A stretch of 64,000 bases of DNA from Halobellus limi. Lineage in GTDB: Archaea; Halobacteriota; Halobacteria; Halobacteriales; Haloferacaceae. The stretch spans positions 1 through 64,000 of the forward strand of contig NZ_CP031313.1 in the NCBI RefSeq assembly GCF_004799685.1, in the 5' to 3' direction. Of this stretch, positions 8,830-20,029 are shown one piece after another; within the stretch, counting starts at the first letter, position 1, and the number at the start of each line of letters is the position of its first letter. The position numbers and the translations under genes are program-made. Under the pieces are notes generated by a model, which had not been told where the DNA came from, searched no databases, and saw only the letters and a program-made list of their open reading frames with translations.

Positions 8830-9635
8830 ACTGATTCCGTGGTGATGGGTGAGATAGCGATTAATCGCAGGTAGTACGCCGTGTACACCGTATAGAAGTA
8901 CGCGAAGCCAACCGCCGACAGCACGATTCCGATCGGAAGTAGGACAGCTATCGGAAGACCGAGGTCGATCGGTAATACGTCAGCTGGAGCAGCGTCTGTC
9001 AGTGTCAATTGGAGCAGGTACTCGGGGATGAGGAAGGCGTTCAACAGGACAAGCCAGGCCAGCGAGAATCCGACCACACTTTTGAGATTTGAGCGGACGA
9101 GTCCAACACTTCTGCGGAACGCATCCGTAACGCTTTGGTCTTCGATGACGATCGCCGCATCGTAAAACTGTACGAACAGTATGACGGCGAGGATGGCCAC
9201 CAGCCAGAGGAGTAGGGAGACGACACCCGCGGTGAAAGCGGCCATCTCGTGTATCGCTGCGAGTGCCATTGACCCGATCCCGAGGACGAATCCGACGAGT
9301 CCGACCCCGATAGCGGTTCCGAAGACGAGAACCACGAACAATACAGTACCAAGGAGAAGTCGGAGGTAATGTGTCCGCGCGGCAGTGACAAAGTGAGAGA
9401 CCGACGCGTCTGTCCCTTCGACCGCGGCACGGGCAGTTCCGAGGAAGCCACCGAGTACGAACGGGAAAAAGACCAGCCACGCAAGCGATGCGCCTGCCGA
9501 AACCAACGGTGGGTCAATCAGGTGCTCAACGTACTGAAGTTGGCTTCCACCCCCGACGAAGAGACCGGCGACGAGCAGGATCGGATTCGCTCGGAGGGCA
9601 GTGTATCCGTCTTTGAATGCGGAGACGAGGACCAT
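8826..9635 (-). CDS. Polytopic membrane protein (DUF7847-like)
   Basis: A 269-residue protein with about six membrane helices and an N-terminal amphipathic segment (SAFKDGYTALRANPILLVAG). A conserved cytosolic loop VIEDQSVTDAFRRSVGLVRS precedes helix five. First gene of the operon with the HTH at 8287 and a second membrane paralogue at 7385. Its stop overlaps the HTH start by four bases. An AT-rich tract (TTAAATCTGG on the minus strand, about 9690-9700) is a possible promoter. The function is unknown, and the family is widespread in haloarchaea. Confidence 0.75.
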   Translation of the reverse strand: MVLVSAFKDGYTALRANPILLVAGLFVGGGSQLQYVEHLIDPPLVSAGASLAWLVFFPFVLGGFLGTARAAVEGTDASVSHFVTAARTHYLRLLLGTVLFVVLVFGTAIGVGLVGFVLGIGSMALAAIHEMAAFTAGVVSLLLWLVAILAVILFVQFYDAAIVIEDQSVTDAFRRSVGLVRSNLKSVVGFSLAWLVLLNAFLIPEYLLQLTLTDAAPADVLPIDLGLPIAVLLPIGIVLSAVGFAYFYTVYTAYYLRLIAISPITTESV

Positions 9636-9894
9636 CGTGTCTACGACTTACCGGTGCCACATATTAGATCGAATGGAGTATCAAAACCAGATTTAAGCAA
9701 TATTAGGGCCTGTCTTGGCTGTTCTCTCCGAGGGGAGTGCTGTTATGCTCAGTCTTTAAGTACCGCTGTGAGTGCTCGGAGTTGTCCCCACCCGTTCGAA
9801 CGGAGTGCCGCGGGCAACCGTCGGCGTGCGCCCTCGAGCGCGCGCTATGGTGCAATCGAGTGAGTGAAGACTTGCAAACGCTACTATAGAACAA

Positions 9895-10611
9895 TTATCC
9901 GAGCCCGAATGCAACGACGACAATGTATCCCCAAATATTGTTGAGTTGATGCACGAACCAGGCACCACTCAGACTATCGAACCGCAGCCGGAGTGCCGTT
10001 GGCACAATCGCCCACGCACACATCGTGATTACGCCGGCGATGCCGAGCAATGAAACGTGAATGAGGCCGAACGTCATAATTGCCACTCCTCCAGCTACAA
10101 CCGGATGAATACCTCGACCAAGCAAAGTCCCCAGTACGACACCACGAAACAAGACCTCTTCAGCAAGCGGCGAAACAAGTACCGCGCCGAACACGACTGC
10201 TCCGATCACAACCGGGTCAGATAGAGTATATTCGTAGCCACTCATCGTGAGTCCCGCCGCCTGTGTTGCTGCGGATGCACCGAGATACAACGCCGTTCCA
10301 ATCGGGAACCCTAACAGTGCCCACGCCGCTTCATCCTTGCTCGGACGGTCAAACCGGAACGCAACTGCCCGCGCCGCCGGGCTGAATAAGACGTATACTC
10401 CGCTAATGACCAACAGGGATGAGAAGCCGTAGCTGACGTTTTTTCCAACAACGCCATATTCTGTGCCAGGAGCAACCGCTTGGTAGCCCAGCCCGAAGGC
10501 AATAGCTAATGGTACAGGGAGCACAGCAGCAATGAGACCGATAAGTACGTGGTTATCAAGAGCCGCTGCGTTACGTTGGAGCTGTCCCCCTGGAATTGTT
10601 CCAGGCATCAT
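9895..10611 (-). CDS. CPBP-family intramembrane metalloprotease
   Basis: A 238-residue membrane protein of the CAAX protease/bacteriocin-processing (CPBP, Abi) family. It carries the EExxxR motif in SPLAEEVLFRGVVLG (about residue 155) and a downstream FGLIHVSLLG helix with the conserved His. Six or more hydrophobic helices are visible. The conserved Glu/His residues bind the catalytic metal inside the membrane. In archaea these enzymes are thought to cleave membrane-anchored proteins, and the substrate is unknown. Monocistronic; about 295 bp separate it from the divergent dsbA-like gene. Confidence 0.88.
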   Translation of the reverse strand: MMPGTIPGGQLQRNAAALDNHVLIGLIAAVLPVPLAIAFGLGYQAVAPGTEYGVVGKNVSYGFSSLLVISGVYVLFSPAARAVAFRFDRPSKDEAAWALLGFPIGTALYLGASAATQAAGLTMSGYEYTLSDPVVIGAVVFGAVLVSPLAEEVLFRGVVLGTLLGRGIHPVVAGGVAIMTFGLIHVSLLGIAGVITMCAWAIVPTALRLRFDSLSGAWFVHQLNNIWGYIVVVAFGLG

Positions 10612-10859
10612 AGTTTGTTCACATTAGAGCGATGGAACCCATTTTAATCGTGGTTAATTAGCTGCACTTTCAGCCACATCGTCGGCTACCTTTCGGGAGA
10701 TAACACTCTACGTTGAGCAGGGAGTTGGCGAACTCAATGTAGACGACGCTTGTACCGTTCCCGATTGAAGACGGACTTATTAATTGTCTGTATGGTTCTC
10801 GTCCCGCGACAGCTCAAGATCTGACTACACAGGACGGACGGACCCAGGTTTACCGTGCT

Positions 10860-10892
10860 AAACCTGCTTTATTGTACACTGCCTGAAATATA
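10860..10892 (+). promoter_or_regulatory. Shared promoter architecture, copy A (before dsbA-like operon)
   Basis: AAACCTG (10860-10866), a 15-nt spacer, then CCTGAAATATA (10882-10892). The same two boxes with the same 15-nt spacing occur at 15034-15066 and 16234-16266. The AAATATA portion is placed like a TATA box 26 nt before ATG 10919. The AAACC box and spacer are placed like an upstream regulator site. An inverted partner (AGGTTTACCGTGCTAAACCT, 10846-10865) is visible here. Confidence 0.6.
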
Positions 10893-10918
10893 TTTTCTGG
10901 CGGGTTGTGGCCATTCAT

Positions 10919-11770
10919 ATGGCTTCGACAGACACGGAGGACGGGCGACCAACGATAACTCAGTTCACCGACCCAATGTGCACGTGGTGCTGGGGCTCAG
11001 AACCCATCATTCGGCGTCTCCGAACCGCACTCGGCAACCAGGTAGAGTTCAGGTATATTATGGGCGGCCTGGTGGAGGACTTCGACGAATTCTACGATAC
11101 AGCCAACGATATCGCAGCGCCCAGTGATGTTGCCCCACATTGGGAAGAAGCATCTCAATATCACGGGATGCCCGTCGATACGCAGATCTTCGAAACCGAT
11201 CCAGCACAATCAACGTACCCCGCAAGCAAGGCATTCACCGCCGCACGCCAGCAGGATACCGAACTGGCACATCGGTATTTACGCCGCCTCCGTGAGGCCT
11301 ACACCACACAAGTCCGTAATGTCAACCGTCGAGAAGAGCAGGTAAAAATCGCCGAGTCGGTCGGCCTCGACGTCGATGACTTCACTACGGCCCTGGATAA
11401 TGGAACTGCTCAAGCAGCATTCGAGAAGGACCTTGCTCGAACCCGCCAAGCAGACGTTCGAGCGTTTCCGACGTATCACATCGACGGGCCAGCCGGTGAA
11501 ACGAAGGTGTCGGGATTCCAGTCCTTCGAGGAGTTGGTGACCGCACTGAAGACTGTTGATCCTACCTTAGAACAGTCATCTCCCCCACCGATAACGCAAT
11601 TTATCGCCGCATACGAGCCTGTTGCGACGCGGGAAGTCGCCGAAGTGTATGAACTCGACGAAGGAAAAGCGCGACAGGCACTGGAATCGTTCGTCGATGA
11701 CGGATCTGTCCGCCGTGAAGCCCGTGGAAACGGCTTCTTCTGGTACTCGAAGAACGGAGGGGAGAGCTGA
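10919..11770 (+). CDS. DsbA/FrnE-like thioredoxin-fold protein with C-terminal winged helix
   Basis: About 283 residues from ATG 10919; a GTG at 10907 is an in-frame alternative. The ATG is preferred because the TATA-like AAATATA lies about 26 nt before it. The N-terminal domain is DsbA/FrnE-like with the redox motif CTWC in TDPMCTWCWGSEP and the cis-Pro loop in VRAFPTYHID. It has no signal peptide, so it acts in the cytosol. The last ~60 residues (PITQFIAAYEPVATREVAEV to the end) look like a small winged-helix unit, an unusual fusion. First gene of a five-gene run ending with azlD. It overlaps the GST gene by 1 nt (TGATG). Confidence 0.85.
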   Translation: MASTDTEDGRPTITQFTDPMCTWCWGSEPIIRRLRTALGNQVEFRYIMGGLVEDFDEFYDTANDIAAPSDVAPHWEEASQYHGMPVDTQIFETDPAQSTYPASKAFTAARQQDTELAHRYLRRLREAYTTQVRNVNRREEQVKIAESVGLDVDDFTTALDNGTAQAAFEKDLARTRQADVRAFPTYHIDGPAGETKVSGFQSFEELVTALKTVDPTLEQSSPPPITQFIAAYEPVATREVAEVYELDEGKARQALESFVDDGSVRREARGNGFFWYSKNGGES

Positions 11771-12738
11771 TGGGGCTGCTCCACAACGGCGAGTGGGAAT
11801 CCGATGCCACCCGCGACCAGTATGATCACGATACCTTCGACAACCGAATTGAGAATTCCCGAAATGCCACGTTCCCAGCGGAGGCAGGCCGTTACCATCT
11901 CTACATCTCGCGTGCCTGTCCGTGGGCGCACCGAGCAGCACTCACCCTGCGTCTCCTCGGGCTCGAAGACACCATCTCCGTTGGCGTCGTTGATCCCGTC
12001 CGCCGCGACCAGGGATGGGAGTTCTCTCCCGAGAAGGCAAACTGTACGACCGATTCGGTTCACGGCCACAAAACCCTCTACGAGGTCTTTCAAGAGGCTG
12101 ATCCGGACTATACAGGCCGTGTGACGGTCCCTATTCTCTACGACCGAGAAGCTGAGACCATCGTCCACGAGGAATCAGCGGAAATCGCTCGGATGCTCGC
12201 CACCGAGTTTGACCACTACACGTCGGAACCGCTGGATCTCTACCCGTCGTCAATGCAGGACGATATCGACGAAGCCATCGAAGACATCCACTCCTCGATC
12301 AACACGGGCGTCTATCGTGCTGGATTCGCTGACTCACAGGAATCGTACGAGACGGCCGTGCAGGAACTCTTCGACGGTATGGAACGCTGGGACGAGATCC
12401 TGTCCACCCGTCGCTACGTCGTCGGTGATCAACTGACTCTCGCAGATGTGTTTCTCTTTCCAACGTTGTATCGGTTCGATGCCGTCTATCACACGCATTT
12501 CAAGTGTAACATCCGTCGCCTGATCGACTTCGATCACCTCTGGGACTACGCCCGAGACATCTACCAGACGGGAGGAGTCCCCGAAACCTGCAATATGGAT
12601 CACGTCAAGGCCCACTACTACCGGAGCCACGATGACATCAATCCGACCGGTTTCGTGCCTGTTGGACCCGAACTCGATTGGACAGAGCCTCATAATCGGA
12701 ACGAACTGCCCAGTGACGACGATAGTGTCAGAAAATAA
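11770..12738 (+). CDS. Glutathionyl-hydroquinone reductase-type (Xi-class) GST
   Basis: A 322-residue Xi-class glutathione-transferase homologue (ECM4/YqjG family). The N-terminal thioredoxin fold carries the catalytic Cys in ISRACPWAHRAALTLRLLGL. The helical C-domain holds DQLTLADVFLFPTLYRFD and the family's terminal NPTGFVPVGP segment. Known members reduce glutathionyl-hydroquinones. Haloarchaea generally use gamma-glutamylcysteine instead of glutathione, so the natural thiol is probably different (inference). Start and stop are tightly packed with its neighbours (1-nt overlap upstream, 2-nt gap downstream), which places it firmly in the redox operon. Confidence 0.9.
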   Translation: MGLLHNGEWESDATRDQYDHDTFDNRIENSRNATFPAEAGRYHLYISRACPWAHRAALTLRLLGLEDTISVGVVDPVRRDQGWEFSPEKANCTTDSVHGHKTLYEVFQEADPDYTGRVTVPILYDREAETIVHEESAEIARMLATEFDHYTSEPLDLYPSSMQDDIDEAIEDIHSSINTGVYRAGFADSQESYETAVQELFDGMERWDEILSTRRYVVGDQLTLADVFLFPTLYRFDAVYHTHFKCNIRRLIDFDHLWDYARDIYQTGGVPETCNMDHVKAHYYRSHDDINPTGFVPVGPELDWTEPHNRNELPSDDDSVRK

Positions 12739-12740
12739 CT

Positions 12741-13871
12741 ATGGCTAACACACTCAATTCAGATCTCGAAGGTATCACGGTCGCAGAGACCCGACTGAGT
12801 CAAATCAACGGTGAAAAGGGCGAACTCCTCATTCGGGGCCTTCCCATCGACGAACTCGCCAGTAATGCGAGCTACGAGGAGACGGTCTTTCTCCTGCTGA
12901 ACGGACGGCTTCCGACATCCGAGGAAACTGACGAGTTCCGGGGTAAACTCGCATCCCACCGCCAGATCTGCGATGAGGTCCAGGCCGTTCTCCAGCGAGC
13001 AGCCCGAGAGGGGAAACCGGCAATGGATGCCCTCCGTATGGGCGTTGCAGCTGCAAACCTCGGAGTTGAAGAGCAAGACCTTAGAAAGGACATCCATCGG
13101 GTGATTGCTGTTTTTCCCACTATTGTGGCAACCTACTGGCGGTACCAGCAGGGGAAAGAACCGGTCGCACCCCGCGACGATTTGGGACACGCAACGAACT
13201 TTCTCTATATGTTGACGGGCGAGAGACCGTCCGAAGCCAGGGCCGCTGGTCTCGAAACCTATCTGAATACTGTCGTCGAGCACGGGCTGAACGCGTCCAC
13301 ATTTACCGCTCGCGTTGTCGTCTCGACAGAGTCGGATCTCATCTCCGCGGCGACGGCTGCTGTCGGAGCGCTCAAAGGGCCTCTCCACGGGGGTGCACCC
13401 GGTCCCGTGTTGGAGATGCTTCAAGAAGTGTATGAAACAGGGGATGCAGAAAAATATGTCCGCGAAACGTTGGACGCCGGCGAGCGGCTGATGGGATTCG
13501 GTCACCGCGTGTACCGCGCACGTGACCCGCGGGCTGCTGTCTTAGAATCGGCCGCTGAAAGCTTTCACACCGAAAAAGGAGACGGTGAATTCTTCGAGGC
13601 TGCTCAGGAGTTCGAGGATGTCGCTACCGACCTATTGGCAGAATATGTGCCGGACCGTCGGCTGGAAACGAACGTGGAATTCTACACTGCAATTCTGCTT
13701 GACGGTGTCGGTATTCCCAAAGACCTCTTTACGGCTACGTTCGCTATTTCCCGGGTTAGTGGCTGGATGGCTCACGCACTAGAACAACTCGACGATAATC
13801 GGTTGATCCGCCCCAGTTCTCACTACGTCGGTGAGACAAAACGGTCGTGGACGCCGGTTGAAGACCGATAG
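12741..13871 (+). CDS. Citrate synthase / 2-methylcitrate synthase family protein
   Basis: A 376-residue type-II-short citrate synthase family enzyme. It has LSQINGEKGELLIRGLPIDE at the N-terminus, GPLHGGAPGPV with a catalytic His, MGFGHRVYRARDPRA with the second His, and the C-terminal catalytic region FYTAILLDGVGIPKDLFTA. It condenses acetyl- or propionyl-CoA with oxaloacetate. Its place between a GST and an AzlC transporter, and not in a TCA cluster, suggests an accessory 2-methylcitrate-type or stress role. The sequence alone does not decide between citrate and methylcitrate. Same operon as dsbA-like and GST. Confidence 0.88.
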   Translation: MANTLNSDLEGITVAETRLSQINGEKGELLIRGLPIDELASNASYEETVFLLLNGRLPTSEETDEFRGKLASHRQICDEVQAVLQRAAREGKPAMDALRMGVAAANLGVEEQDLRKDIHRVIAVFPTIVATYWRYQQGKEPVAPRDDLGHATNFLYMLTGERPSEARAAGLETYLNTVVEHGLNASTFTARVVVSTESDLISAATAAVGALKGPLHGGAPGPVLEMLQEVYETGDAEKYVRETLDAGERLMGFGHRVYRARDPRAAVLESAAESFHTEKGDGEFFEAAQEFEDVATDLLAEYVPDRRLETNVEFYTAILLDGVGIPKDLFTATFAISRVSGWMAHALEQLDDNRLIRPSSHYVGETKRSWTPVEDR

Positions 13872-13897
13872 TAGGAAAATATGATAACTATTGAAAT

Positions 13898-14656
13898 ATG
13901 ACTCAGATGGACAAAGACACGGCTGAGACATCGTTTGATGAAGAGGATGCGTCAGCCGAGATGGAAAGCGAAGTGCTTGAATTCTCCCGTGACGGGATCT
14001 GGTCTGGCTTCGTCACCTGCGCCCCCGTTGCCCTCGGAGTTGGTGCCTATGGCCTCGTATTTGGTGTTCTCGCGCGCGAAGCCGGCCTGAGCGTCATAAC
14101 GGCCGTCACAATGAGTGCTACCGTGTTGGCAGGGGCAGCACAACTCATCGCTGTTGGGCTCTGGGACTGGCCGATTCCTGTCGTCGCTGTCGTCGGCACG
14201 ACTCTGGTGGTAAACCTCCGGTATCTCCTGATGGGTGCCTCATTGCGTCCGTGGTTTACTCGGCTGTCGTCTCGACAAGCGTATACGAGCCTCTTCTTTA
14301 TGGCCGACGAGAACTGGGCCCTCACGATCAAGGATCTCCGTGCCGGCAACGAACGCGGAGCGTTTCTTTTGGGGAGTGGGCTGGCGATCTGGGTGTTCTG
14401 GGTCGTCGCTACTGCTATCGGGGCAGTCGCTGGAGGTCGCATCGGTAACCCAGAGACCTATGGGTTGGATTTTGTCCTAACGGCCATCTTTCTCTCCCTC
14501 CTCGTTGGGTTCTGGGAAGGACGAACCTCCTTAGCTCCGTGGATCGCAGCTGCCGTCGTCGCAGTCGTCGTTGAAGCTGTCCTTCCCGGCCGTTGGTATA
14601 TCCTGGCTGGGGGGCTTGCCGCAAGTTTAGCGGAGGTGACGCGCAATGTTCGATGA
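13898..14656 (+). CDS. azlC: AzlC family branched-chain amino acid exporter subunit
   Basis: A 252-residue AzlC protein. After an acidic N-terminal tail come membrane helices with the family's GFVTCAPVALGVGAYGLVFG, AGLSVITAVTMSATVLAGAA and FFMADENWAL segments. AzlC and AzlD form a small-solute exporter, known for branched-chain amino acids and azaleucine resistance in Bacillus. The azlD start at 14646 lies inside this gene by 11 nt, giving translational coupling. An acidic leader before the first helix is typical of haloarchaeal versions. Confidence 0.9.
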   Translation: MTQMDKDTAETSFDEEDASAEMESEVLEFSRDGIWSGFVTCAPVALGVGAYGLVFGVLAREAGLSVITAVTMSATVLAGAAQLIAVGLWDWPIPVVAVVGTTLVVNLRYLLMGASLRPWFTRLSSRQAYTSLFFMADENWALTIKDLRAGNERGAFLLGSGLAIWVFWVVATAIGAVAGGRIGNPETYGLDFVLTAIFLSLLVGFWEGRTSLAPWIAAAVVAVVVEAVLPGRWYILAGGLAASLAEVTRNVR

Positions 14657-14966
14657 GGTGTCACTGACTGCGTTGGCAGTCGTGTGTGGGATGAGCCTCG
14701 TCACGTACTCGACCAAGGCCGGTGGGTTCTGGGCACTAGACCGAATCGAGCCTTCCGACTCAGTTCGAGAGGCGCTTGACGCCCTTCCAGGAGGAATCAT
14801 CATCGCGATCCTTACCGTTCGGTTACTGAATGGTGGACCTATTGAGTGGGCTGCTGGAATCGTCGTCGTCCTCGTCGCTCACCGAACTGAGAACGTCTTG
14901 CTAGCAATGGCAGCTGGCATTGTCACGCTGCTAGTCATTCGCGGAACAGGTTCAGGGATCGTGTAG
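14646..14966 (+). CDS. azlD: AzlD family transporter subunit
   Basis: A 106-residue AzlD partner with four hydrophobic helices: ALAVVCGMSLVTYSTKAGGF, then LDALPGGIIIAILTVRLL, AAGIVVVLVAHRTENVLLAM, and a terminal helix. It contains the family-typical sequence around residues 37-55 where a proline-rich turn precedes helix two. It overlaps azlC by 11 nt and is the last gene of the 10.9-15.0 kb operon. Confidence 0.88.
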   Translation: MFDEVSLTALAVVCGMSLVTYSTKAGGFWALDRIEPSDSVREALDALPGGIIIAILTVRLLNGGPIEWAAGIVVVLVAHRTENVLLAMAAGIVTLLVIRGTGSGIV

Positions 14967-15033
14967 CGCCTCCAATCACGGAAACGTCACCTTGGCTGTG
15001 TGCCCCTCTATTTCTGGGGTGGTATAATACAGG

Positions 15034-15066
15034 AAACCAGGTATAGTATAATATTCCTGAAATATA
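15034..15066 (+). promoter_or_regulatory. Shared promoter architecture, copy B (before EamA)
   Basis: AAACCAG (15034-15040), a 15-nt spacer containing GTATAGTATAAT, then CCTGAAATATA (15056-15066). A short open frame begins with ATG 15099, exactly 33 nt after the box, the same distance as in copy C. Confidence 0.65.
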
Positions 15067-15098
15067 CTTACCAAAGGTCTGTACTCCTTCCTGCAACA

Positions 15099-15158
15099 AT
15101 GCCAGCGTCGTATTGGAATTTCAACCGGGTGTCGCAGTCGTGGACGCCGAGTGAATAA
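15099..15158 (+). CDS. Putative 19-residue leader peptide overlapping the EamA start
   Basis: ATG 15099 opens a 19-codon frame (MPASYWNFNRVSQSWTPSE) ending in TAA at 15156-15158. The stop lies inside GTGAATAA, whose GTG (15151) is the possible EamA start. The ATG lies at the same distance from the conserved CCTGAAATATA box as the leader at 16299. It may be a coupling or regulatory peptide. Its translation is inference from position only. Confidence 0.4.
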   Translation: MPASYWNFNRVSQSWTPSE

Positions 15159-16092
15159 GAGTCAAAGTATGCTTTCGATGTTTCACAAAAATACGGTCCT
15201 CTTTCTGGCGTATGGGCTCCTTGGTGCGGCCCCCTTTGTTGGGGCAGTTGCGGGATTATCCTTCTTTCCGCCGGTACTGTTCGCCGCATTCCGAATTGAC
15301 GTCGGAGCTGTGTTACTCCTCCTGTTGGTAGCGGTTAGAGGCGACTATTGGCATCCGAAAACGACTGAAGATATTGCTGGAGTGCTCGTGACCGGAATTC
15401 TCACGCTGGGAGGAAATATCGCACTAGTATTCGCTGGTCAACAGTATATCACGAGTGCTACTGGATCGGTGATTTACAGTCTTGCACCTTTGCTCACCGC
15501 CGTATTCGCGTATATTTTATTGCCATCCGAACGACTCAGTCTTCTGGGTGGTGTTGGAATCGTTCTTGGGTTCGTCGGTGCAGGTATCGTTACGAATCCG
15601 GATCCGTCCAATTTAACGACCGTGACGAACCGCGGAGTCGGGCTAGTGTTCTTGAGTGTACTGTCTTTCGGATTAGGAAACGTGATTACACGACGCATAG
15701 ATCCCGATCTGCCAAGTCTCACACTCACGACTTGGGGGTTAGTAGTCGCAGCCGTGTTCGTCCACAGTGTGAGCGTCCTGCGTGGTGAATCCGTTAGTCA
15801 GTCCGAATGGACGATACAAGCGGTGCTCTCGTTGATTGGAGTTGGGGTTATTGGGACTGCTGTACTGTACCGAGTCCATTTCGAGCTGCTTACTGAGATT
15901 GGAGCAACGAGAACGAACCTCGCATATTACGCCCATCCAGTTTCGACCGCCGTTGCAGGATATCTAATCCTCGACGAGCGGATCACGGTCTTCACAATTA
16001 CTGGGTTAGTTGTGATCTTTGCAGGATTCGTGCTCATTGAGTGGGAAAGAATACAGTCTGTAATTCCACGGTCTTTTCACCGATATTTGTGA
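15151..16092 (+). CDS. EamA/DMT-family transporter
   Basis: About 313 residues from GTG 15151; ATG 15169 gives a slightly shorter form. Ten hydrophobic helices form two EamA repeats. Characteristic pieces are FAAFRIDVGAVLLLLLVA, SATGSVIYSLAPLLTAVFAY and the second-repeat YYAHPVSTAVAGYLILDERI. DMT transporters export amino acids or other small metabolites through the cytoplasmic membrane. It stands alone behind promoter copy B, next to the AzlCD exporter and before the DoxX/MFS pair, all under similar promoters. Confidence 0.85.
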   Translation: MNKSQSMLSMFHKNTVLFLAYGLLGAAPFVGAVAGLSFFPPVLFAAFRIDVGAVLLLLLVAVRGDYWHPKTTEDIAGVLVTGILTLGGNIALVFAGQQYITSATGSVIYSLAPLLTAVFAYILLPSERLSLLGGVGIVLGFVGAGIVTNPDPSNLTTVTNRGVGLVFLSVLSFGLGNVITRRIDPDLPSLTLTTWGLVVAAVFVHSVSVLRGESVSQSEWTIQAVLSLIGVGVIGTAVLYRVHFELLTEIGATRTNLAYYAHPVSTAVAGYLILDERITVFTITGLVVIFAGFVLIEWERIQSVIPRSFHRYL

Positions 16093-16233
16093 CCTTCTGG
16101 GTAGCACGTAACAGCTGAGCAAGCATAGGAAATTCAACAATCCATTTTATATAATATTTTATATATTTATTGGATCCGGTCAAGGCCCTACAAACTCTAT
16201 TATTCCCATATCTATGTCCAGGTTCGGTTTAGG

Positions 16234-16266
16234 AAACCTGGTATAGTATAATTTGCCTGAAATATA
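16234..16266 (+). promoter_or_regulatory. Shared promoter architecture, copy C (before DoxX/MFS)
   Basis: AAACCTG (16234-16240), a 15-nt spacer (GTATAGTATAATTTG), then CCTGAAATATA (16256-16266). It is nearly identical to copy B over the whole 33 bp. ATG 16299 follows after 33 nt. The preceding 16140-16200 is very AT-rich. Confidence 0.65.
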
Positions 16267-16298: not shown

Positions 16299-16391
16299 AT
16301 GTCACCAAACGACATTCGATCTACGACGAGTGGAAGCGCACAGACCTACAGAAAGCTGCTTAGCCGCAGTTCATCGAGAGGTGACGCCTGA
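16299..16391 (+). CDS. Putative 30-residue leader peptide coupled to DoxX
   Basis: ATG 16299 opens a 30-codon Ser/Arg-rich frame (MSPNDIRSTTSGSAQ...) whose TGA at 16389-16391 overlaps the DoxX ATG (TGATG). The ATG spacing to the conserved promoter box equals that of the leader at 15099. The two peptides are not similar in sequence. A small gene translated from a leaderless transcript and coupled to doxX is the simplest reading. Confidence 0.4.
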   Translation: MSPNDIRSTTSGSAQTYRKLLSRSSSRGDA

Positions 16392-16807
16392 TGGTGTTCG
16401 ATTCGGCGCTGTCTGAGACGGCATTCCTGCTCAGTCGAGTGCTCTTTGCACTCGTCATCGGCTACCTCGCGCTGGGAAACCTGCTTGACCTCGAGTCGGC
16501 GGTGGGGTACGCCAAGAGTAAGGGTACGCCGCTGGCCTCGGTCACCGTTCCACTGGGAAGCCTCGGGCTGATCGCCGGCGCGCTCGCAGTACTCATAGGT
16601 GTCTACCCCGTCCTCGGTTCACTGGCAGTGGTCGTCTTCCTCGTTCCGATTACGGCCATTATGCACGACTTTTGGACTTTGGAAGGTCAGGATCGACAGA
16701 ACGAACAGATCCATTTCCTGAAAAACATCGGCCTGATCGGGGCTGCACTAGGCTATCTAGCGCTGGCCTCTGTCACCTGGCCGCTGGCAGTCGGCATCGG
16801 GCTCTGA
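16391..16807 (+). CDS. DoxX family membrane protein
   Basis: A 138-residue DoxX/DoxD-like protein with four helices. Characteristic are LSRVLFALVIGYLALGNLLD, then KGTPLASVTVPLGSLGLIAG, VLGSLAVVVFLVPITAIMHDFW, and the terminal IHFLKNIGLIGAALGYL. DoxX proteins are membrane partners in quinone-linked or thiol-redox functions, and in several organisms associate with oxidative-stress systems. It is followed after 6 nt by an MFS transporter and sits behind promoter copy C. Both fit a redox/efflux regulon. Confidence 0.87.
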   Translation: MVFDSALSETAFLLSRVLFALVIGYLALGNLLDLESAVGYAKSKGTPLASVTVPLGSLGLIAGALAVLIGVYPVLGSLAVVVFLVPITAIMHDFWTLEGQDRQNEQIHFLKNIGLIGAALGYLALASVTWPLAVGIGL

Positions 16808-16813
16808 TAACCG

Positions 16814-18016
16814 ATGGGAGCAACCGAGACGTCGCCGAGTACTGAGCGATCAGTAGGTGTTCCCTGGCGTTCGCCAGTCTTGGTCGCCATCCTCGCGGCG
16901 ACACTGATGGCGCCTATGGACGTGCCGCTAATCAGCGCGGTGCTTCCCGAAATCCAGTCGGTATTTGGAGTCACCGAGTCTCGCGCTGGCCTGTTCATCA
17001 CACTATATGCGCTCCCAGGGATACTGCTCGCTCCGGTTATTGGCGCACTCGCCGACCGCCTCGGTCGGCGGTACGTCCTTTCAGTAGCCCTTGCCATCTT
17101 TGGGATCGCCGGTACTGCCATTGCGTTCACAGACGATTTCGCAGTGGCGCTCGGTCTGCGCGTTTTTCAAGGGTTCGCCGCCGGGAGTATCCTCGCAGCA
17201 CTTGCGATGACCGCGGTCGGCGATCGATACTCTGGCCAGCAACACGACTCCGTCATGGGTGTTACGTCAGCTATGCTGTCGCTTGGGACCGCGGCCTACC
17301 CGGTGATCGGAGGGTATCTCGCAGCCCGCGCCTGGAATGCACCGTTCCTTATGTATGCGTTCACGCTGCCGGTTGCGGGACTGGTTCTGTTGGCGTTCGA
17401 CGATATCGAGAGGGCACCTGATAGCAAGGGTAGTGGCTACATCCGTGAGGCACTCAACCTCATCCCAACCCGCCGAGCCATCACGCTGTACGGCATTATG
17501 TTCGTCTCCTTTACCCTCCTCTTCGGTGGATTATACACCGCTCTGCCGTTCTACCTCGCTGATGCGTTCGGCTTTACACCCAGTACAGTAGGACTCGTTA
17601 CCAGCACTGTCTTACTAGCTACAGCTGTTGTCTCAACGCAGAACGGAACGCTGGCTGCAAGAGCTTCGACGACGATACTGCTCACCATCGGGTTTGCCCT
17701 GTACGCACTCGGCTTTCTCGGCGTCGCCCTCGCAAGTACTCCCCTGCTGCTAATCGCCGGACTGCTCGTATTCGGTGTTGGCAGTGGTCTCGTCACCCCC
17801 ACGCTCTTCGCTAGGATTAGTGTCTTAGCTCCAGATGAGGTTCGTGGCGGCGTGATGAGTCTCCAGACAACGACGATCGGAATCAGTCAAGCTGTTGGTC
17901 CAGCAGTGTTCACGCTTCTTGGCGGCGCAATCGGCTACCAGGGCACGCTCCTTTCTGGAAGTGTTGGAGCAGCTCTGGCAGCTGTGCTACTGAGTATCCT
18001 CACATCCAGGTCTTGA
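16814..18016 (+). CDS. MFS transporter (drug/metabolite:H+ antiporter type)
   Basis: A 400-residue major facilitator with twelve predicted helices. The loop 2-3 motif A is seen as GALADRLGRRYVLS, and the helix-five region VTSAMLSLGTAAYPVIGGYL resembles antiporter motif C. A hydrophilic N-terminus precedes helix one (SPVLVAILAATLMAPMDVPL). Likely an efflux pump at the cytoplasmic membrane. It begins 7 nt after doxX and is probably cotranscribed with it. The substrate is unknown. Confidence 0.88.
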   Translation: MGATETSPSTERSVGVPWRSPVLVAILAATLMAPMDVPLISAVLPEIQSVFGVTESRAGLFITLYALPGILLAPVIGALADRLGRRYVLSVALAIFGIAGTAIAFTDDFAVALGLRVFQGFAAGSILAALAMTAVGDRYSGQQHDSVMGVTSAMLSLGTAAYPVIGGYLAARAWNAPFLMYAFTLPVAGLVLLAFDDIERAPDSKGSGYIREALNLIPTRRAITLYGIMFVSFTLLFGGLYTALPFYLADAFGFTPSTVGLVTSTVLLATAVVSTQNGTLAARASTTILLTIGFALYALGFLGVALASTPLLLIAGLLVFGVGSGLVTPTLFARISVLAPDEVRGGVMSLQTTTIGISQAVGPAVFTLLGGAIGYQGTLLSGSVGAALAAVLLSILTSRS

Positions 18017-18055: not shown

Positions 18056-18982
18056 ATGGCCAGTGAACAGTCTGACAGAACTCAGGTCGCAACCGACGCT
18101 GAATCAGCGTTTATGACCCTGAGCCACGATCTTCGATTAGAAATTCTGCTCGCACTCTGGGATGCACCAGGGTTTTCATTATCCTTCTCCGAGCTTCGGA
18201 AGGCAGTAGGGGAACGCGATTCAGGCAGCTTTACGTACCATCTCTCGGAGCTACAGGATCAATTCGTCGCGAAAACCGACGATGGCTACGAATTGCAGTA
18301 CCCCGGGCACCGCGTTCTCGATGCAATTCAGAGTGGTGTCTTTCACGATCAGGTCACAGTCGGACCGGTCGGGTTAGACGATGATTGCCGAGAGTGCGGG
18401 GAGCAACTGACCTTCGAATACGATACCGATTACATCGCCCGGATTCGCTGTTCTGACTGTGGGAATCGGGCGCTAGAGTGGCCGTTCGATCCCGGTGGTA
18501 TTGCCGAGCGCGATAGCGACGCCATCGTTGCGGCCTTTGACCGGCGGACGAAACTCATCTGGTCGTGCGCCCTCGATGGTATCTGCCCGTTCTGTGCTGG
18601 CCAAATCAACCGCGAGTTGACTAGCCGCGTCCACGAGCAGGGAGCCTGCATCGGTGTTATCGAACAACTCGACCGGTACGACGAGTACTTCGCCCGCGAT
18701 CATCCTGCGGTCGTGGCAGTTGACTGCGAGCGATGTAGTTTCTACAGCTTCATTCCAGTCGGCGTCGTCTTACTGACGCGTCCGGCAGTCACTGGCAAAC
18801 TTTATGACGTCGATATCGATTCTCGAGAGACGCCGCTGTGGGATCTCGGGTTTGTCGTTGACTCCGATTCAGTCACTGTCCTGCAAACAGACCCTATGTG
18901 TGTCGAGGTTTCTATTCCGGATGCGACGGAGTCGTTAGCAGTTACTATCGATGAGTCGTTCACCGTCACCGTCGAGGATTGA
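18056..18982 (+). CDS. ArsR-type regulator with zinc-ribbon motifs
   Basis: A 308-residue haloarchaeal regulator. The winged helix at about residues 18-85 has MTLSHDLRLEILLALWDAPG and SGSFTYHLSELQDQFV. Two Cys-pair ribbons follow, CRECGEQL with CSDCGNRA near residue 110-140 and CPFCAGQI with CERCSFYS near 180-225, then a beta-rich C-terminus. The Cys pairs could bind zinc or sense oxidants. A TATA-like TCAATATTTATAC lies 25-35 bp before the ATG. Being next to the DoxX/MFS operon and the three shared promoters, it is one candidate for their regulator; the HxlR at 19646 is the other. Confidence 0.8.
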   Translation: MASEQSDRTQVATDAESAFMTLSHDLRLEILLALWDAPGFSLSFSELRKAVGERDSGSFTYHLSELQDQFVAKTDDGYELQYPGHRVLDAIQSGVFHDQVTVGPVGLDDDCRECGEQLTFEYDTDYIARIRCSDCGNRALEWPFDPGGIAERDSDAIVAAFDRRTKLIWSCALDGICPFCAGQINRELTSRVHEQGACIGVIEQLDRYDEYFARDHPAVVAVDCERCSFYSFIPVGVVLLTRPAVTGKLYDVDIDSRETPLWDLGFVVDSDSVTVLQTDPMCVEVSIPDATESLAVTIDESFTVTVED

Positions 18983-19058: not shown

Positions 19059-19643
19059 ATGGACGTGAACGGCACCAAACATATAGTCGCACTATGTGGA
19101 AGTCAGCGGGACGGAAGTCGTACTCGTCACGCACTCGAACAAGCTCTGGGAGCAGCCGAGACAAAGGGCGCCACGACCGATCTCGTGGACCTCAGCACAT
19201 TAGACCTGCCAGTCTTCGATCCAGATCAGAGTGATACCGGGGATGCGAAAAAACTCCGCCAACTCGTGAGAAGTGCTGACGGCGTGTTACTGGGGTCTCC
19301 AGTGTACCACGGGTCGTACTCGTCAGTCCTGAAGACTGCAATCGATTACTGTGGGTTCGACGAGTTTGAGGAAACGACGGTCGGCCTCCTGGTCGTCGCC
19401 GGCGGAGGGTTCCCGACACCCGCGCTGGAGCATCTTCGATCGGTTGCCCGCTCACTCAACGCCTGGGTACTCCCCCACCAGGTCGCAATCCCAAATGCCC
19501 ACAGCACCTTCGAGGCCGGAGAGTTAACCGACGAAGCGCTGGTTCAGCGAGTTGAGGCGCTTGGAACTGAGATCGTCGATTACGCAGGCGTCGAATCGTA
19601 CCCCGAGAGCACTACTGCCTGTGCTGTCCCCACGGCCGATTAA
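19059..19643 (+). CDS. NADPH-dependent FMN reductase family protein
   Basis: A flavodoxin-fold reductase of about 194 residues from ATG 19059; an in-frame GTG at 19038 would add seven residues. It has the FMN phosphate loop GSQRDGSRTRHALEQAL at the N-terminus and SPVYHGSYSSVLKTAIDYCG, the typical NADPH_dep_FMN_red second motif. It reduces FMN or quinone/azo-type substrates. A TATA-like GATATATAATATTAA lies at about 18983-18998. It is 2 nt upstream of the HxlR gene, a common quinone- or electrophile-sensing pair. Confidence 0.87.
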   Translation: MDVNGTKHIVALCGSQRDGSRTRHALEQALGAAETKGATTDLVDLSTLDLPVFDPDQSDTGDAKKLRQLVRSADGVLLGSPVYHGSYSSVLKTAIDYCGFDEFEETTVGLLVVAGGGFPTPALEHLRSVARSLNAWVLPHQVAIPNAHSTFEAGELTDEALVQRVEALGTEIVDYAGVESYPESTTACAVPTAD

Positions 19644-19645
19644 CT

Positions 19646-20029
19646 ATGTCCGCTGAAACTGAATCCCGACAGAACGAGATCGAGAAACAGAACGCATCCG
19701 CCTGTCCAGTCATCCAAGCCATCGAACAGATCGGAACTCCCTGGCGGATGAACATCATCTACGCCCTCAGAGAGGGGGAGAAACGGTTCAACGAACTCAA
19801 GCGAGCGACCGGAGCACGCTCGAAGACCCTCTCCGACGCGCTCGACGAACTGGTGGACAACGACATCGTCGCTCGACGTATGGAGGAAGACGCCCCGGTC
19901 GCGGTCTACTACGGTCTCACAGCAAAAGGAGAGGATCTCCTTGACGTGTTAGCAGACCTGGATGAATGGGCCCAAGATTGGGGCGAAGAAGTCCCCGAAG
20001 GACCGAATCACCGTATCCACGAGGCCTGA
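19646..20029 (+). CDS. HxlR-family winged-helix regulator
   Basis: A 127-residue HxlR regulator. The N-terminal ACPVIQAIEQIGTPWRMNII includes the single Cys used as a thiol sensor in HypR/YodB-type members. The recognition region is RFNELKRATGARSKTLSDAL and the wing carries APVAVYYGLTAKGEDL. It is translated from an ATG two bases after the FMN-reductase stop. It probably regulates that reductase, and perhaps the DoxX/EamA/DsbA promoters, in response to quinones, aldehydes or disulfide stress (inference). Confidence 0.9.
   Translation: MSAETESRQNEIEKQNASACPVIQAIEQIGTPWRMNIIYALREGEKRFNELKRATGARSKTLSDALDELVDNDIVARRMEEDAPVAVYYGLTAKGEDLLDVLADLDEWAQDWGEEVPEGPNHRIHEA

Follow-up and report, generated by a model that had tools for sequence, protein, structure and literature searches.

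The window analysed here is a stretch of 64,000 nucleotides from Halobellus limi (contig NZ_CP031313.1, positions 1 to 64,000). As listed in Table 1, it carries an island of detoxification and transport genes in which three copies of one promoter element (A, B and C) are found, together with two candidate regulator genes, one encoding a DUF7347/DUF7351 protein and the other an HxlR-family protein. For the closest match of the Xi-class glutathione transferase, the enzyme of Natrialba magadii, gamma-glutamylcysteine has been proposed as the thiol, and the tagged protein had no detected hydroquinone reductase activity.

Table 1 Genes and promoter elements of the island, with positions in the window
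Feature	Position	Strand	Remarks
Operator/promoter A	10847..10892	+	Before DsbA-GST-citrate synthase-AzlCD
Operator A, upstream dyad GGTTTA-N6-TAAACC	10847-10864	+	Perfect in copy A
Operator A, second repeat	10866-10883	+	
Operator A, BRE/TATA-like CTGAAATATA	10883-10892	+	
DsbA-family protein, YjbH-like	10919..11770	+	PDB 6ghb, E 6e-29
Xi-class glutathione transferase (GST)/glutathionyl-hydroquinone reductase	11770..12738	+	6gzf, Natrialba magadii, E 4e-108
Citrate synthase/2-methylcitrate synthase-like	12741..13871	+	
AzlC and AzlD, branched-chain amino acid exporter type	13898..14966	+	AzlD by position and by the naming in the earlier note
Operator/promoter B	15021..15066	+	Before EamA; BRE/TATA-like 15057-15066
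19-aa upstream ORF, promoter B	15099..15158	+	End resembles citrate synthase 3' end
EamA-family transporter	15151..16092	+	Start may be ATG 15172
Operator/promoter C	16221..16266	+	Before DoxX-MFS; BRE/TATA-like 16257-16266
30-aa upstream ORF, promoter C	16299..16391	+	Stop overlaps DoxX ATG (TGATG)
DoxX-family membrane protein	16391..16807	+	
MFS efflux-type transporter	16814..18016	+	
DUF7347/DUF7351 wHTH zinc-ribbon protein, ArsR-like	18056..18982	+	Rival regulator
Second conserved promoter element TTACTGGAAYGNRTTCCACCGAGCGCTTAA	18999..19033	+	Before FMN reductase-HxlR operon
NADPH-dependent FMN reductase, azoreductase-like	19062..19643	+	YhdA, 3gfq
HxlR-family wHTH regulator, YodB-like	19646..20029	+	Single N-terminal Cys20; proposed binder of operators A-C

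A pattern search of the window found AAACCWG-N15-CCTGAAATATA exactly at 10860-10892, 15034-15066 and 16234-16266, always on the + strand, and no further match with up to three mismatches (0.03 expected). In the rest of the 3.75-Mb genome there was no other site, even when a looser pattern was used at three mismatches. The three identical sites described in an earlier note on this DNA were thus borne out exactly, and they are unique in the genome. That note had also proposed a scan of the genome and its relatives. When 170 genomes of the family were scanned with 2 mismatches allowed, the pattern gave 20 matches in 13 genomes, most of them in clusters ahead of DsbA, GST or DoxX, and the reversed pattern used as control gave 4 matches in all. 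A 20-base consensus was then run against 392 genomes of the order; 17 matches were obtained in 8 of them, with 0 matches of the reversed-pattern control, and a second family was reached. Exact search of GTDB contigs found the site in Halobellus, Halorubrum, Halorarius, Halomicroarcula, Natronomonas, Haloglomus and Halopenitus. Altogether, about fourteen other haloarchaeal genomes carry it ahead of the detoxification and transport genes found here, usually with an HxlR/YodB-type regulator gene nearby, and the clustered matches are far above chance. Isolated two-mismatch matches in the family (G040, G042, G103 at C1:3428194 and G151) are probably due to chance and were left out of the site alignment. 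A chance origin of the motif itself was ruled out by shuffles and by the reversed-pattern controls.

The alignment of 38 sites showed a conserved stretch from about -15 to +34, with the consensus CC-n-GGTWTM-n6-n-AAACC-T-GGTWTAnTRTAAnnTGCC-T-GAAATATA. The earlier note had described two boxes exactly 15 nt apart. An arrangement with a free spacer was rejected, as the spacer itself is conserved (GTWTAnTRTA), and conservation reaches about 15 nt further upstream than the first of those boxes, giving an element of about 46 bp. Self-comparison gave lag 19 as the best match in 27 of the 38 sites, as against 7% of shuffles. The operator consists of CC-T-GGTWTA units repeated in tandem at a 19-bp pitch; equivalently, it can be written as GGTWTA-N6-TAAACC dyads, of which the second has a degenerate right arm. 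Of the six pairs in the first dyad, four show complementarity in 71-89% of sites and two in roughly one site in three. The second dyad has poor symmetry, with good retention (95%) of the outermost pair alone. Read from sequence, the earlier boxes correspond to neighbouring copies of a CC-T-G(G/A) repeat with this pitch, and the putative third unit merges with the BRE/TATA-like box CTGAAATATA. The earlier layout is therefore replaced by an array of half-sites running into BRE/TATA, which gives a fuller definition of the operator.

The leaders behind the three promoters were also compared. Of the three promoters, A alone is leaderless with respect to the gene behind it; its box and the DsbA ATG are 26 nt apart, as would be expected of a leaderless transcript. 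Copies B and C share GTATAGTATAAT and each have an ATG 33 nt after the site (32 bases between them), as the earlier note had pointed out; their leaders are homologous. These ATGs are not the starts of EamA and DoxX; they open short upstream ORFs that overlap the starts of those genes. The end of the promoter-B ORF matches the 3' end of the citrate synthase gene (19 nt, 89%, SWTP), which, together with a citrate synthase-EamA operon in another genome (G441), suggests a deletion remnant. The ORF before DoxX has 27-31 aa (M-S-x-N-D-I-R...) and is open in 11 of the 11 orthologous leaders compared. A functional peptide is not supported for it, as its codon positions diverge by 0.33/0.42/0.42 with no third-position excess. 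It carries a GGAGGTGA-like sequence and the TGATG overlap, and with the kept open frame these features suggest translational coupling.

Sites in other genomes are mostly paired or tripled and precede DsbA(-GST-citrate synthase-AzlCD), DoxX(-MFS), GST, citrate synthase-EamA or AzlC. EamA is a target in G441 as well, where the citrate synthase-EamA operon stands behind a weaker site. Quinone or azo reductases are both linked and targeted by homology: an azoreductase-like FMN reductase lies in the HxlR operon, and the Xi-class hydroquinone reductase is itself a target. The same element precedes the same genes in many genera, far above chance, and the shared regulon suggested earlier is well supported. 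Judged by its sequences, it is a real, conserved and island-borne regulon, and a thiol/quinone stress theme would fit the homologies of its targets. Divergent operator copies were seen before a MATE efflux gene in a genome of the same genus (G086, L022 8361) and before an isochorismatase-like hydrolase gene (G157, L028 1017, minus strand); both genes are likely to be further members. A decayed copy of the island was observed in G072 (L064, about 9577-11286), with a stop in DoxX, a fragment of HxlR and an operator degraded to a low score.

The HxlR protein matched PF01638 with an E value of 3.5e-20 and 72.1 bits, against a cut-off of 20.8, which places it in the HxlR/DUF24 family. Its matches to the structures of YodB, HxlR and HypR are clear, and the best PDB match is the quinone sensor YodB. 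Cys20 is its only cysteine; it aligns with the sensing cysteine of YodB (CP motif) and was found in every intact motif-linked HxlR orthologue. A second, C-terminal cysteine as in YodB is absent from the protein, which excludes a YodB-like two-cysteine inter-subunit disulfide switch. S-alkylation or other Cys20-based chemistry would be possible. The FMN reductase-HxlR operon is preceded by a different element, TTACTGGAAYGNRTTCCACCGAGCGCTTAA, which occurs once per genome in 5 of the 170 family genomes, all with a close HxlR, and lies directly before HxlR in G074. No operator of the A-C type was seen before HxlR in this island, and with this different promoter element there is no visible autoregulation through the regulon operator.

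About 30 loci across the family (L097-L114 and L040-L056) in which an HxlR paralogue is divergent from a DoxX gene were inspected, and several distinct operator types were found. The HxlR-DoxX intergenic regions of genus g18 have 19-bp tandem GGTRAC...CC repeats before TATA, with lag 19 the best in 6 of 6, and GGTRAC stands there where the regulon operator has GGTWTA. Related repeats, judged by eye, occur in the corresponding regions of G075 and G103. The recognition-helix region parallels the half-sites, being of SKTLSDALD type in motif genomes and of SRTLSRVVD type in g18. This parallel, which is correlative, points to HxlR. We consider it probable that the linked HxlR protein controls operators A-C as one electrophile/quinone regulon.

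The earlier note had offered the ArsR-type DUF7347/DUF7351 protein and HxlR as candidate regulators, and both are usually present in motif genomes. Co-occurrence with the motif is significant for a close HxlR (Fisher p=6e-9) and almost equally so for the ArsR-like protein (p=4e-8; 7 of 9 motif genomes), which is found in most motif islands and here lies directly behind DoxX-MFS. The operators could thus be bound by this protein, with HxlR acting via the second element on nothing but the operon that encodes it, and the different site before that operon would agree with this. However, the protein is missing from the 20 kb taken around the motif loci of G407, G358, G074 and G075, where HxlR is linked to the motif; elsewhere in G407, G358 and G075, and in G167, just distant homologues (33-43%) were found, and the protein occurs in G068 and G133, both with no motif match. 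Its binding would also leave the 19-bp layout at HxlR-DoxX pairs unexplained. Control by the DUF7347/DUF7351 protein therefore appears unlikely, and HxlR is the better of the two candidates, with G167 as a clear exception in having two strong motifs and no close HxlR. That duplication has merely spread a strong core promoter, perhaps one read by a particular TFB paralogue, and that no dedicated regulator is involved, is very improbable. Copies B and C, with their homologous leaders, may be duplicates and CTGAAATATA resembles BRE/TATA, but the tandem structure and the conservation about 30 nt upstream of BRE argue against it, as do the non-homologous genes behind the same site in several genera and its near absence elsewhere in those genomes. 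That the DsbA/YjbH-like protein controls the sites through its wHTH-like C-terminus is hardly credible: this protein is among the targets in many islands and its fold is that of a thiol-redox family, yet its gene is missing at the motif loci of G358, G061, G167 and G075, and the YjbH match covers almost its whole length, so that no DNA-binding domain has to be assumed at the C-terminus.

From the operator, its conservation, the gene set and the linkage we infer that HxlR dimers would sit side by side on the 19-bp-pitch array just upstream of BRE/TATA. Electrophiles or oxidants such as quinones or disulfide stress would modify Cys20 and change binding or activity, and the genes for hydroquinone reductase, YjbH-like DsbA, DoxX and efflux would be switched on. 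As regards the sign of control, HxlR might instead act as a repressor that blocks TFB at BRE until quinones release it, differing from the preferred explanation in sign only. The nearest solved relative, YodB, is a repressor, YodB, CatR and QsrR are all repressors released by quinones (PMC6798810), and the last repeat overlaps BRE/TATA. On the other side, BRE/TATA is preceded by the main conserved dyads, and archaeal activators usually bind in that upstream position (PMC5937170); moreover HxlR, the name-giver of the family, is annotated as an activator. The position of the dyads gives a slight lean, little beyond even odds, to activation through TFB/TBP recruitment, and we regard the repressor mode as somewhat less likely but a real possibility.

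A more far-reaching reading, less likely than not, would be a large, unstudied haloarchaeal family of HxlR-DoxX sensors, with a one-cysteine quinone/electrophile switch and with members that would be true activators, their dimers stacked at 19-bp pitch and recruiting TFB; the version described here would be a mobile multi-operon regulon in a two-tier circuit, with the HxlR operon on a different element. A literature search, mostly of papers outside subscription, returned no haloarchaeal HxlR-DoxX link and no HxlR operator there. With the element come a precise, testable operator, a probable sensor and targets that are well delimited. It would make archaeal thiol/quinone signalling directly testable, and likewise the meeting of a bacterial-type regulator with a TBP/TFB promoter.

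Electrophile/quinone sensing is well mapped in Firmicutes. The YodB, CatR and QsrR regulons have inverted-repeat operators, and catD encodes a DoxX-family protein. YodB and QsrR respond to quinones through an N-terminal cysteine, and their targets include azo/quinone reductases (PMC6798810). Like YodB and CatR of Bacillus subtilis and QsrR of Staphylococcus aureus, the system described here combines an HxlR-family regulator, an N-terminal cysteine in the sensing position and an azo/quinone reductase theme. Unlike them, it has an archaeal core promoter, a tandem operator of 19-bp pitch upstream of BRE/TATA and one cysteine only. Its targets also differ, being GS-hydroquinone reductase, YjbH-like DsbA, citrate synthase, AzlCD, EamA and MFS, and in contrast to those systems no ring-cleavage dioxygenase was seen among them. 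Among haloarchaea, the TrmB-family thiol regulator of Haloferax volcanii is named OxsR. This thiol-based regulator is reported to act in haloarchaeal thiol/oxidative stress control (PMC9426492); the likeness, drawn by theme and family only, is in that stress theme, whereas OxsR belongs to the TrmB family and the present regulator to HxlR. The position of the site immediately upstream of BRE/TATA resembles that of the TFB-RF1 and GvpE activators, although the protein families are unrelated and TFB-RF1 has a single 13-nt palindrome in place of a tandem 19-bp array (PMC5937170). On this comparison, the regulon would work like a YodB/CatR/QsrR quinone regulon, minus the two-cysteine switch and with an archaeal operator layout of its own.
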